Source of the DNA: Synechococcus sp. WH 7803
GTDB lineage: Bacteria; Cyanobacteriota; Cyanobacteriia; PCC-6307; Cyanobiaceae
Direction of reading: 5' to 3'
DNA length: 64,000 bases
NCBI GenBank assembly: GCA_000063505.1
Contig: CT971583.1
Coordinates: 1,271,918-1,335,917, forward strand
In this document: piece after piece, positions 4,511 to 7,539 of the stretch
Layout: each line of letters starts with the position of its first letter
How positions within the stretch are numbered: the first letter of the stretch is position 1
Notes under the pieces: model-generated
What the model was told of the DNA's origin: nothing
What the model saw: the letters and a program-made list of their open reading frames with translations, nothing else
Database searches by the model: none
Translations under genes and position numbers: made by a program

Positions 4511-4534
4511 TCTCAATAAACACTACTATTGAGA
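4511..4534. promoter_or_regulatory. Inverted repeat between the ATPase and Fur-family genes (possible operator)
   Basis: Perfect 8-bp arms TCTCAATA (4511-4518) and TATTGAGA (4527-4534) are separated by 8 bp in the short divergent intergenic region. An AT-rich palindrome immediately upstream of a Fur-family gene is a natural candidate for autoregulation and could control both directions. It does not match the classical 7-1-7 Fur box exactly, so the link is inferred. Confidence 0.45.
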
Positions 4535-4567
4535 ATGATCAGCTGGATTGGGATGCCATCAGTGTCC

Positions 4568-5002
4568 ATGCACCCTGAGACTGGCGGATCTCTGCAGCAA
4601 GGGCTGCATCAAGACGGACGTCGACTGACACCCCAACGCAGGCGGATCCTGGAGTTGTTCGAATCGCTTGGAGGTGGACGGCATCTCAGCGCCGAAGACG
4701 TGCATCATCAATTGCTGGATCGTGAGTTGAGAGTTTCACTCGCCACGATTTATCGCACACTGAGGCTGTTGGTGGAGATGGGGTTTCTTCAGGAATTACA
4801 AACCAGCAACGGCAGCCAGTTCGAACTGGCTGACGCCGAGCACATTCGCCACCACCACCTGGTTTGTGTGCGCTGCGGGCGCACGGAGGAGTTCGAAAGT
4901 GAAGAGGTTCTCAATGCTGGCTTGCAAGCCAGCAACAAGTTTGGCTTCGACCTCATCGGCTCCAGCCTCACGGTGCGAGGCATTTGCCCGCAATGCCGTT
5001 GA
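4568..5002 (+). CDS. Fur-family metal- or peroxide-responsive transcription regulator
   Basis: This 144-residue protein has an N-terminal winged helix (RLTPQRRRILELFESLGG, then the recognition helix VSLATIYRTLRLL). The C-terminal dimerisation and metal domain carries HIRHHHLVCVRC and a terminal CPQC, so two CxxC pairs form a structural zinc site. This is the standard Fur/PerR/Zur layout; the visible residues do not decide between iron, zinc and peroxide sensing. The ATG at 4568 is preferred because the frame's earlier starts (TTG 4529, ATG 4535, ATG 4553) crowd the inverted repeat at 4511-4534. It converges on the His-rich repeat protein ending at 5010. Confidence 0.9.
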   Translation: MHPETGGSLQQGLHQDGRRLTPQRRRILELFESLGGGRHLSAEDVHHQLLDRELRVSLATIYRTLRLLVEMGFLQELQTSNGSQFELADAEHIRHHHLVCVRCGRTEEFESEEVLNAGLQASNKFGFDLIGSSLTVRGICPQCR

Positions 5003-5009
5003 AGAGGAG

Positions 5010-5492
5010 TCAGTGATGCTCCTGCGGATGCTCCAAGCAGGGCATCCAGTAGTTCCCCATGCGGTGTGCACCCTTGCAGCCAAGGCTCTTGGCCTGTTCT
5101 TCGGCAAGCTCTCGGGTTGGGTAAGCAAGCGTGCGGGGATCATCCCCATTCAGGGACCCTGATCCTTCAGCGCCGTGATGGGCGTGGTGATCGTGATCAC
5201 CTGGTTTCGCTCCGATTCGCACCAGGCCCATGCTCATGGGTCCTGCGGTCCAAACCCCCATGGTGTTCACTCCAACCGCGAGCAGTCCCATGCCAACGAT
5301 CGAGAGATTGATCACACCCATGGCCACAATGCCAATGGAGACCACACCCATCGGCACGATTCCGATGCAGACGACGCCCATCGGAACGATGCCAATGGAC
5401 ACCGTGCCCAAAGGGGCAACGCCGATGGCAAACCGTTTGGGTTTGCTGCCGCAGTGGGCAGGGCCCTGATCAGTAGGTTGCATTGCATTCAT
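5010..5492 (-). CDS. Pentad-repeat protein with His-rich linker and C-terminal DUF3721
   Basis: This 160-residue protein starts at ATG 5492; an upstream TTG at 5537 is less likely. Residues 22-95 are a strict five-residue repeat with glycine at every fifth position from 24 to 94, Ser64 being the single exception. Typical units are IGIVP and MGVVS. A short histidine-rich linker (GDHDHHAHHG) follows. The last 45 residues match DUF3721, a small domain common in marine cyanobacteria (GCKGAHRMGNYWMPC), ending in more histidines. The repeat could form a beta-solenoid or a membrane-associated glycine zipper. The Cys/His content and the neighbouring Fur-type regulator suggest metal handling, which is inference only. 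Confidence 0.75.
   Translation of the reverse strand: MNAMQPTDQGPAHCGSKPKRFAIGVAPLGTVSIGIVPMGVVCIGIVPMGVVSIGIVAMGVINLSIVGMGLLAVGVNTMGVWTAGPMSMGLVRIGAKPGDHDHHAHHGAEGSGSLNGDDPRTLAYPTRELAEEQAKSLGCKGAHRMGNYWMPCLEHPQEHH
5208..5430 (-). repeat. Coding tandem repeat: fifteen glycine-spaced pentads
   Basis: This is the DNA segment encoding residues 22-95 of the protein at 5010-5492. Fifteen 15-nt units encode (I/M)Gxxx pentads. The DNA repeats are imperfect (for example recurring CCGATGGGC- or CCAATGGGT-like blocks on the minus strand), so the register is conserved at the protein level more than at the DNA level. Confidence 0.8.
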
Positions 5493-5547
5493 CCGTTCAT
5501 GATGACGTTTGCTCCCAGCGCAGCTTGCTTGAGCCAAGCTGAGTGTG

Positions 5548-5808
5548 ATGGATGGTGATCTTCCCGAAGGATTTCACGAGGTGCTCGTGATCACTCCCCT
5601 GCTCTTCGAGCAGGGAGCGGAAGCGGTTCTGGCCATTCGCGAGCAGTGCACGGTGGTGCTGAATCTCACGGCCATGGAGCCATCATTGGCCCAGAGGACA
5701 GCCGATTTCGTTTCCGGTGGAGTCAGGGCACTCGACGGCCAGGAGCATCGCGTCGGAGAGCAGGTTCTGCTCTTTGCGCCTGCCAACGTTGATGTGAATC
5801 TCAGCTGA
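5548..5808 (+). CDS. Core-only SepF-like (DUF552) protein
   Basis: This 86-residue protein starts at ATG 5548, with a GTG directly before it. The stretch from VVLNLTAMEP through QRTADFVSGGVRALDG to LFAPANVDV is the pattern of the SepF/YlmF core that binds FtsZ and polymerises. Full-length cyanobacterial SepF has an N-terminal membrane-targeting amphipathic helix and a linker; here only the core is present, with a short LPEGFHEVLVITP lead-in. It could be a SepF paralogue that modulates division or an unrelated use of the fold. It overlaps the end of arsS convergently by 8 nt. Confidence 0.75.
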   Translation: MDGDLPEGFHEVLVITPLLFEQGAEAVLAIREQCTVVLNLTAMEPSLAQRTADFVSGGVRALDGQEHRVGEQVLLFAPANVDVNLS

Positions 5809-6778
5809 GCGACCCACCACAACTGGATCCCTGTCCGGCAGTGCAGCCGAAGCAATGATCCGCAACAGCAATGGGCTGATCCTCCAAACCACCCTGCACC
5901 GTTAAAAGGTCGGCGAGCACGGCAGGCTCTGCGCCGGCTGCACAACCGAGTTGTTGATTGAAATCGCAGTCATGAAGTGCTCCGGTCCAGCTCACGCTGA
6001 TCAACGTCCGACACATCACCTCATCAAGATTGGCAGGTCGATGCGCCTCACGCAGGAGAGTTTGATATCCCTCGAGTTCTCCGCTGACCTCGAGATCGCG
6101 AGCAAAACGCTTGATTGGCATATTGGCGATTGTGAGCAACTGATGAAACGAAATCCCATGGGACTTCATCAATTGCTCCCTGTATTGCGCCTGTAATGAT
6201 TGCTGCGGTGGTGGCAAAGAGGGCCCGGACGGGTTGTAGACAAGATCCAGCTCCAGTGGCGAACCGGGCATTCCATATCCCAACTGATTGAGCCTTTTCA
6301 ACGCATCAAGACTGCGCTCGAATACACCGCGACCGCGTTGTCGATCAACGCGATCCTGTTCGTAGCAGGGCAGTGAAGCCACGATGCGCACACCTGAATC
6401 AGCGAGAAATTCAGCGAGTGTTTCTTGCCCCGGTTCCATCAAAATCGTGAGGTTGCAGCGATCAATCACCGCGACGCCCTGGGCGCGGGCCTCACGCACA
6501 ATCTCCCTGAACTGCGGATGGAGCTCGGGGGCACCACCTGTTAAATCAAGGGTCTTCAAGTGACAGTGCTGCAGAACCTGCGCAATCAGCTTCACCTGAT
6601 CGGGCTCCATCATTTCTGTGCGCCAAGGCCCTGCATCCACATGGCAATGACTGCAGCTTTGATTGCAGCGGTAGCCGAGGTTCACCTGCAATGTTTCAAG
6701 GCGACGTCGCCGAAGGGATGGGAAGGGCGAGGGCAGAGTCTTCATCGCATCAGGCTGGATTCTGACTGACCCCGCCAT
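5801..6778 (-). CDS. arsS: Arsenosugar biosynthesis radical SAM protein ArsS
   Basis: This 325-residue radical SAM enzyme has the cluster motif CNQSCSHC near the N-terminus. Substrate-pocket features (DLTGGAPELHP, LDLVYNPSGP) and a C-terminal cysteine cluster (CFGCTAGQGSSCGG) are typical of ArsS (DUF3641 family). ArsS adds the 5'-deoxyadenosyl group of SAM to dimethylarsenite on the way to arsenosugars, a detoxification route in marine phototrophs. An ArsM methyltransferase partner is not in the immediate neighbourhood. The ATG overlaps the upstream stop as TGATG, so the gene is co-translated with the exported protein at 6778-7539. Confidence 0.9.
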   Translation of the reverse strand: MAGSVRIQPDAMKTLPSPFPSLRRRRLETLQVNLGYRCNQSCSHCHVDAGPWRTEMMEPDQVKLIAQVLQHCHLKTLDLTGGAPELHPQFREIVREARAQGVAVIDRCNLTILMEPGQETLAEFLADSGVRIVASLPCYEQDRVDRQRGRGVFERSLDALKRLNQLGYGMPGSPLELDLVYNPSGPSLPPPQQSLQAQYREQLMKSHGISFHQLLTIANMPIKRFARDLEVSGELEGYQTLLREAHRPANLDEVMCRTLISVSWTGALHDCDFNQQLGCAAGAEPAVLADLLTVQGGLEDQPIAVADHCFGCTAGQGSSCGGSLS

Positions 6779-7539
6779 CAAGGTTGTGCCGCCATGCGGT
6801 CGAGTAGCGCCACAGTTAAATCATCGCCTTGGGTTTGAAGGTAGGCATACCCCTTTCCATCGGAACGAAGGATCGCTGCATACACGTAATTCACCCCCCG
6901 GGCATCTTGCTGACGAATGCGCCCGACGCAATTGTCGTCTTGTAGGAAACGACCCTGATAAGCCGCGACTTCACCGGCACCGTCATACGACGACACAGCC
7001 AGCCCCGCCATTTGCCATGCCGACCAGATCTCACGTTGAATCACGGCATTTGGCGTCCAAGCTCCATTCGCGAACGTCATCCCCATCTGACGACTGAGCA
7101 CGGTGCCATCCATTGCAGAGGGCTTGCAGGCGCCAGCAGGCTGGGGCAACCACTGCTCGGTCACGACATCACCAACCTTCGTACTGATGCCAAAACGGGG
7201 GGTTCCCTGATCGGAGAGCAGCACACTGCTTGCACTTCCCTGCTGGTCACGGGTCACGGTGAGGCCGCAGGCGGACACTTTTTGCCAACGCCCCTGATAG
7301 CGGGTTTCGCTGTAGCGACGCCCGACGCGCAGAAAGCGTCGACCACGGACCGATCCATCCTCCAACCAGGTTTCAAGCTGCAAACCACCCAGAGGTGCCT
7401 CGCCACGCTGGCCTTGGCGAATCACCAGATAACTGCCGGGACGAGGAGCGGCACACTCCATGGGTTCCGGTTGATTCGCCCGCACCGATGCCGGCACGCA
7501 AACAGCCAAGGCAATGGACCCAAACAACAGCGAACGCAT
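6778..7539 (-). CDS. Exported protein of unknown function upstream of arsS
   Basis: The product is about 253 residues with a signal peptide ending near ASVRANQ. The mature part has five cysteines (MECAAP, SACGLT, GACKPS, DDNCVGR and one in the leader), consistent with periplasmic disulfides, and several beta-type stretches. No catalytic motif was recognised. The start chosen is ATG 7539; a GTG two codons earlier (7545) is also possible. The stop overlaps the ATG of arsS, so they form an operon, though a functional link to arsenic is only positional. Confidence 0.65.
   Translation of the reverse strand: MRSLLFGSIALAVCVPASVRANQPEPMECAAPRPGSYLVIRQGQRGEAPLGGLQLETWLEDGSVRGRRFLRVGRRYSETRYQGRWQKVSACGLTVTRDQQGSASSVLLSDQGTPRFGISTKVGDVVTEQWLPQPAGACKPSAMDGTVLSRQMGMTFANGAWTPNAVIQREIWSAWQMAGLAVSSYDGAGEVAAYQGRFLQDDNCVGRIRQQDARGVNYVYAAILRSDGKGYAYLQTQGDDLTVALLDRMAAQP

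Follow-up and report, generated by a model that had tools for sequence, protein, structure and literature searches.

A charge-free glycine repeat with a methionine/histidine ladder, fused to DUF3721: a candidate metal-handling protein of cyanobacteria

The window analysed here, a stretch of 64,000 nucleotides from Synechococcus sp. WH 7803, encodes a small protein that is composed of four parts (Table 1): a basic N-terminal flank (HCGSKPKR), a glycine-phased repeat domain, a His-rich linker and a C-terminal DUF3721 module. The start (MNA) is kept in the relatives L007-L009. The linker with the string GDHDHHAHHG (residues 98-107) and the DUF3721 module had already been recognized in a first-pass annotation of this DNA, and both were confirmed: The C-terminal 33 residues score above the curated cut-off of PF12518, and the Cys/His module is kept, with Cys139, His143, Cys152 and His155 being nearly invariant across the relatives. 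For this module, AlphaFold predicts a helix and a beta-hairpin (block pLDDT 87-89, blocks 121-150). The neighbours of the gene are a Fur-family regulator, a SepF-family protein and ArsS, not copper genes. The Fur gene and the repeat gene are convergent and meet stop to stop with 7 nt between them (5003-5009); thus, the two do not form an operon. A long open reading frame on the plus strand (5175-5558) runs antisense to the repeat and reads as a His/Asn-rich repeat. It is probably not a gene, and antisense frames of this kind mislead automatic clustering. An association with MerR that had come from a cluster of open reading frames was rejected: The cluster mixes antisense frames of the repeat, and a MerR-like string is present only in L097 and L100.

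Table 1. Features of the locus and of related loci. Coordinates are positions in the window or, where an L number is given, in that locus.
Feature	Locus	Coordinates	Strand	Remarks
Fur-family regulator	window	4529..5002	plus	Pfam FUR 1.1e-31; the genome has three Fur paralogues
Whole coding sequence of the repeat protein	window	5010..5492	minus	160 aa, stop included; translation begins MNAMQPT
DUF3721 module, residues 124-156	window	5025..5123	minus	Pfam PF12518, 64.5 bits (cut-off 27), 7e-18
His-rich linker, residues 95-123	window	5124..5210	minus	mostly predicted disordered; pLDDT <50 over residues 84-117
Glycine pentad / Met-Gly decad domain, residues 21-94	window	5211..5432	minus	phase shuffles and alternate-unit Met/His
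Basic N-terminal flank, residues 13-20	window	5433..5456	minus	Cys14 and Lys19 nearly invariant (61 sequences)
SepF-family protein, 87 aa	window	5545-5808	plus	oriented away from the repeat gene; in 15 of the 100 scanned loci
ArsS arsenosugar radical SAM protein	window	5801-6781	minus	444.7 bits (cut-off 300); in 27 of 100 loci scanned
Stand-alone repeat gene	L121	6481-6717
Stand-alone repeat gene	L125	6437-6700
Stand-alone repeat gene	L139	6463-6720
Stand-alone repeat gene	L145	4209-4442
Zinc-import cluster beside the fusion gene	L091	338-5727		arrangement opposite to L143
Zinc-import cluster beside the fusion gene	L143	7489-12619		arrangement opposite to L091
Metal island of the same genome	L201	5857-17831 (C1:902856-914830)		two ZnuA-type importer sets

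The repeat consists of 15 contiguous five-residue units, 14 of which carry glycine in phase (residues 24, 29, 34, 39, 44, 49, 54, 59, 69, 74, 79, 84, 89 and 94); Ser64 is the sole exception. This is the array of phased pentads with one serine that the first-pass annotation had described, and it was borne out statistically: In 200,000 shuffles of the 74-residue domain, 14 glycines in one phase were never reached, and the maximum was 11. Loss of the register among homologues, named beforehand as the observation that would tell against such an array, was looked for and not seen. A string of eight glycines, one Ser, Ala or Cys and three further glycines is readable in 52 of the 54 repeat-bearing loci of the first searches, a set from which the minus-strand matches L026, L033 and L047 are excluded as chance reading frames. 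In the two exceptions, one unit is missing before the break (L050) or the array is cut by a stop (L038). The latter locus (G144:C1:1375180) holds a copy of the fusion gene that is broken by one in-frame stop codon, and a second repeat gene is present nearby in that genome. The question whether the number of repeats varies among homologues can be answered in the affirmative: The units beyond the first twelve differ among clades, and the 71 distinct domains compared have 11 to 15 units. At the level of the DNA (11 pairwise comparisons), the repeats of close relatives differ mostly by silent codon changes, as in L066 (6 amino acid changes and 30 silent ones in 82 codons) and L067 (9 and 37 in 82 codons); the distant L139 is less silent (28 and 31 in 76 codons). 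The conservation of the register in the relatives taken together with the mostly silent codon changes argues that the register is a feature under selection.

The distribution of methionine reveals a second, longer period. In the window protein, Met precedes Gly in alternate units (residues 38, 48, 58, 68, 78 and 88), resulting in a period of ten residues. Of 80 and 29 loci, the script recognised 67 and 27, respectively, as having the domain, and for each domain it picked the parity richer in Met/His, so that some imbalance is built into the counts that follow: In the 71 picocyanobacterial domains (L066-L145), Met stands before every second Gly in 404 of 473 cases as compared to 1 of 509 for the other parity, and in 27 domains from other cyanobacteria, 104 Met and 37 His residues occupy the 165 positions of the richer parity, with 3 Met and no His among the 175 positions of the other; in every single domain, the poorer parity holds at most one Met or His. 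The consensus of the decad is roughly hydrophobic-hydrophobic-Ser/Ala-Ile-Gly-Ile/Val-Val-Pro/Ser-Met/His-Gly. By this pattern, the true repeat unit is ten residues, not five. The exchange of Met and His at one fixed place is what would be expected of a ligand position for copper or another soft metal. Met is also a plain hydrophobic residue, and its role may be limited to packing.

The domain is devoid of charge over most of its length: Residues 21-91 contain no charged residue at any of 71 positions, and the 41 windows of 19 residues with a hydropathy above 1.6 all lie within residues 21-81. In 95 distinct domains, Asp, Glu, Lys and Arg account for 71 of 6010 residues, and 59 domains lack them completely. 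In 86 of the 95 domains, the preceding 12 residues carry a net positive charge, and in 64, at least three His residues are found within 40 amino acids C-terminal of the domain. With its charge-free hydrophobic domain and basic N-terminal flank, the repeat looks like a membrane-associated segment with the N-terminus in the cytosol. Structure prediction gave neither a clear fold nor plain disorder. Two AlphaFold runs based on 61 and 51 sequences (mean pLDDT 57.6 and 52.2; pTM 0.29 and 0.33) placed strands about every ten residues with pLDDT values of 46-67 in the repeat block. Disorder, which had been named in advance as evidence against an ordered repeat, is predicted for the His linker, with pLDDT values mostly below 50, whereas the repeat itself has strands of low confidence. 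Of the two folds that had been proposed, beta-solenoid and glycine-packed membrane bundle, the bundle fits the absence of charge, and the solenoid may fit these low-confidence strands. A Foldseek search of the PDB with the low-confidence domain model gave nothing at E <1 (best E 1.1). By sequence, three weak PDB matches were obtained (best E 0.69), and the repeat profile found none up to E 10.

The PF01744 (GLTT repeat) profile scores 70.2 bits on the repeat as compared to a cut-off of 21, and it also matched all ten relatives scanned. PF01744 describes the nematode XGLTT repeat, with which the window protein shares the period of five residues and the glycine in register; the strict alternation of Met/His is different, and the string GLTT of that consensus is absent from the window protein. 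We take this match as that of a five-residue glycine profile rather than as a family assignment. The consensus A(N/D)LXX of the pentapeptide repeat proteins and their charged surface are missing as well. Pentapeptide_2 reaches 12 bits (cut-off 26.4), and no other pentapeptide model matches up to E 1; by profile and by consensus, the window protein is not a pentapeptide repeat protein. What it has in common with these proteins is a run of more than eight contiguous five-residue units (15 in this case), which they fold into a right-handed quadrilateral beta-helix (PMC8145042).

These comparisons bear on the idea that the protein is a small soluble beta-solenoid similar to the pentapeptide repeat proteins, i.e. 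a rigid scaffold or a stacking oligomer in which Met and Gly pack and metal binding is confined to the His linker and DUF3721. The AlphaFold strands with a period of about ten residues, the 15 contiguous pentads, the weak Pentapeptide_2 scores in relatives (best 0.0026, below the cut-off) and the relative that differs by a whole unit would agree with such a fold. However, 71 positions without charge, the low Pentapeptide_2 score of the window protein and the lack of a PDB match by profile or by Foldseek at the thresholds given above speak against it, as does the one inspected phage pentapeptide match (record H9), which lies antisense to the annotated pentapeptide gene. We therefore regard a soluble solenoid as rather unlikely. 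From this one record, the whole set of phage and plasmid relatives (17 phage and 3 plasmid records in tblastn searches, all below 60% identity) was judged to be compositional. Among viral contigs, 21 stretches matched the pattern, none of them encoding a relative.

The repeat is widespread in the relatives of the organism. A match was found in 30 of the 31 genomes of the genus, which are related genomes rather than independent events; the sole miss is a genome that is 63% complete. A scan of species genomes yielded 411 related stretches, and the best 80 of these 411 were studied. Nearly all of them are labelled as Synechococcus, Prochlorococcus, Cyanobium or other cyanobacteria, and two contigs (L070 and L077) carry the label of a gammaproteobacterial MAG. 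Among 386 cyanobacterial genomes, the repeat profile matches 98, some of them weakly, and DUF3721 is present in 57, all within the family of the window organism. The relatives from outside this family that were read have no DUF3721, and many of them have a His-rich C-terminal tail. Moreover, immediately downstream of the fusion gene, some Prochlorococcus genomes contain a stand-alone glycine pentad gene that lacks DUF3721. The simplest history would be that DUF3721 was added in picocyanobacteria to an older combination of repeat and His tail. We found no paper on DUF3721 or the "GLTT repeat", nor on slr1425 as a possible member in Synechocystis, and among the matches listed in a search of the literature around petRP none was recognised as describing such a repeat protein. 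The family thus appears to be uncharacterised. We rate the repeat protein as a putative small metal-binding protein of the Met/His type, with a chance of a new fold.

In some genomes outside the picocyanobacteria, the genes that surround the repeat may point to copper. In 28 non-picocyanobacterial genomes (L176-L191 and L232-L244, with L192 and L193 left out of the neighbour scan), about 1.4-4 kb were read on each side. First, in four of them (L184, L186, L191 and L232), genes for a BlaI-family repressor and a protease come after the repeat gene in the same orientation. In all four, Pfam identifies BlaI as well as the protease, the latter as M48 over the cut-off and as M56 below it. Second, two genomes (L188 and L233) have the row cytochrome c - repeat - DUF1775 - CopC/CopD, with CopC/CopD and the cytochrome detected by Pfam in both and DUF1775 by Pfam in L188 and by tblastn in L233. 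Finally, a cytochrome c6-like gene adjoins the repeat in L239, which belongs to a second copy of the L232 genome, and, as two tblastn pieces, in L184; c6-like denotes a small Pfam cytochrome c that we take to be of the c6 type. Altogether, 6 of the 28 genomes have BlaI/protease, cytochrome c6-like or CopC/CopD neighbours, and in the other 22, among them each of the 12 from family f6, single-query tblastn searches detected none of these in the stretch read. Two further genomes of family f12 with short flanks are not part of this count: A cytochrome c6-like gene lies beside the repeat in G407, and none was found in G408. In a picocyanobacterium (G009), a stand-alone repeat gene is located beside a cytochrome c6-like gene (L194). 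Since most of the genomes listed carry a single BlaI-family gene, the adjacency in four genomes is unlikely to be due to chance. In Synechocystis, such a repressor and protease, PetR and PetP, form the copper switch between plastocyanin and cytochrome c6, and the PetRP regulon is reported to contain two proteins of unknown function (PMC7896320, and for the switch also PMC12292863). From family and place we infer that the pairs beside the repeat are of the PetR/PetP type. With copper binders of the CopM and CopC type, the window protein shares Met and His residues, a His-rich tail and, in its relatives, the copper-type neighbours; CopM, however, is a helical bundle (PMC12292863), in contrast to the Gly-phased repeat of the window protein. 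In L185 and L234, a DUF411 gene lies at a distance of about 1 kb from the repeat gene. This was not counted as evidence for copper: DUF411 has a presumed copper link, for which a paper search matched DUF4114 only.

In the picocyanobacteria, the fusion gene is found in a different company. The first-pass annotation had derived a metal-related role from the Fur gene at a distance of 7 nt. The distance is correct and the role is supported, but the adjacency is not its main support: No more than 27 of 80 loci, a set that includes some loci cut by contig ends, have the pairing, with a Fur identity of 62-87%. Most loci from Prochlorococcus and Cyanobium, a number of them truncated at contig ends, did not show it. 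It is rather the presence of copper-switch or zinc-import genes beside the relatives that supports a role with metals. Of the other two Fur paralogues of the genome, L198 is similar to the Fur-family proteins found in L091 and L143, and by eye we take all three to be Zur-like; L197 lacks CxxC pairs. The Fur protein of the window is the third paralogue and, by elimination, may be the iron Fur. In the two Prochlorococcus loci L091 and L143, the fusion gene adjoins genes that Pfam assigns to CobW, ZnuA, an ABC ATPase, the Fur family and an ABC-3 permease; judged by these families, this is a zinc-import context. A porin-like gene is located near the repeat in 15 of 100 loci scanned, with 28-60% identity to the L143 query, and the porin-like protein of L143 (4437-5633) has a His- and Met-rich N-terminus.

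A link to zinc is also apparent for the DUF3721 proteins that lack the repeat. These have a hydrophobic N-terminal stretch, in some cases with a lipobox-like site, where the window protein instead has the glycine decad domain (the 22 proteins classified in this way include two doubtful ones, the fusion gene fragment of L038 and L091). In the genus, 34 of 60 such copies lie within 15 kb of ZnuA, where uniform placement would, by a rough calculation, give about 2. A repeat-free copy is present in 30 genomes, and in 26 of these, one is found within 10 kb of ZnuA. In contrast, none of the 32 fusion copies of the genus is located within 15 kb of ZnuA, which is on the same contig for 20 of them and absent from it for 12. 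The genome of the window organism contains a metal island with the order ZnuA, ABC-3 permease, DUF3721 with hydrophobic N-terminus, cytochrome c, ArsP_1 permease, DUF1980_C, ABC-3 permease, a Zur-box-like site, and ZnuA. Much of this order recurs among the loci of the genus that were compared. In 27 loci, one per genome, which had been selected for such a DUF3721 copy (in most cases one already known to be close to ZnuA; G013 and G026 left out), ArsP_1 is present in 25, an ABC-3 permease in 26 and a cytochrome c6-like gene in 20, a count that is conditional on this choice of loci and includes a weak partial match in L219. For strain WH8102, PMC9337993 reports uncharacterised Zur-repressed genes around znuABC.

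It is conceivable that the protein handles zinc, or iron, instead of copper, and that the fusion serves zinc import or belongs to a Zur or Fur regulon. The zinc-import clusters of L091 and L143, with their Zur-like regulator, the adjoining Fur gene in 27 loci, the DUF3721 paralogues near ZnuA and the Zur-box-like site in front of a ZnuA-family gene would all be in line with this. However, the metal-related neighbours of the repeat outside the picocyanobacteria are copper-type genes, the Fur gene of the window is convergent, and the Zur-box consensus has no match anywhere in the window even if up to 3 mismatches are allowed. Moreover, Met is an atypical ligand for zinc. We regard zinc or iron in place of copper as rather unlikely.

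Our preferred reading, to which we assign a probability of about 0.4 as a whole, is that of a small membrane-associated metal-handling protein with copper as the most likely metal (or zinc); metal handling of some kind, taken for itself, is probable. It is favoured by the Met/His ladder, the charge-free domain and its flanks, the silent codon changes, the copper-type neighbours, and the ZnuA-linked DUF3721 paralogues. Each charge-free, very hydrophobic decad, made of two glycine pentads, carries one Met, or His in the relatives, just before Gly. In the proposed mechanism, the repeat would insert into the plasma membrane or the thylakoid membrane, or lie on it, and its N-terminus would face the cytosol. 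On the opposite side of the membrane, the Met/His ladder together with the His/Cys tail would bind copper, as Cu(I)/Cu(II), or Zn. The metal might then be buffered or passed on when the cell decides between plastocyanin with copper and cytochrome c6 with iron. The assignment to copper is weakened by several observations: The predicted structure has strands of low confidence, not helices; in the genus, the fusion lies beside Fur and in none of 32 cases near ZnuA; the context in L091 and L143 is of the zinc type; and only 6 of 28 genomes have copper-type neighbours. A role of the repeat as a mere membrane anchor of the elastin or glycine-zipper type, which offers no metal ligand itself and tethers DUF3721 or the His tail, would agree with its V-P-x-G-V steps, its high hydropathy and lack of charge, and the hydrophobic N-terminal stretch that the DUF3721 paralogues have in its place, but this is very improbable given the stand-alone repeat genes without DUF3721 (L121, L125, L139 and L145) and the fact that a generic tether would not hold Met/His specifically at every tenth position.

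Synechococcus and Prochlorococcus are dominant phototrophs of the ocean. The gene is near-universal in the genus and occurs across these two groups, whose growth depends on the sharing of scarce copper, iron and zinc. Should the Met/His ladder indeed bind copper, the PetR/PetP copper switch would gain a further component, and a repeat with one ligand every ten residues would be a simple way of building a series of metal sites, open to experimental test. It is tempting to speculate even further that the repeat represents a new architecture, a linear Met/His array in or on the membrane that acts as a copper relay tied to the switch between plastocyanin and cytochrome c6 across the cyanobacteria, with DUF3721 as a second metal module in the ocean picocyanobacteria; as a whole, this wider proposal is an unlikely one.
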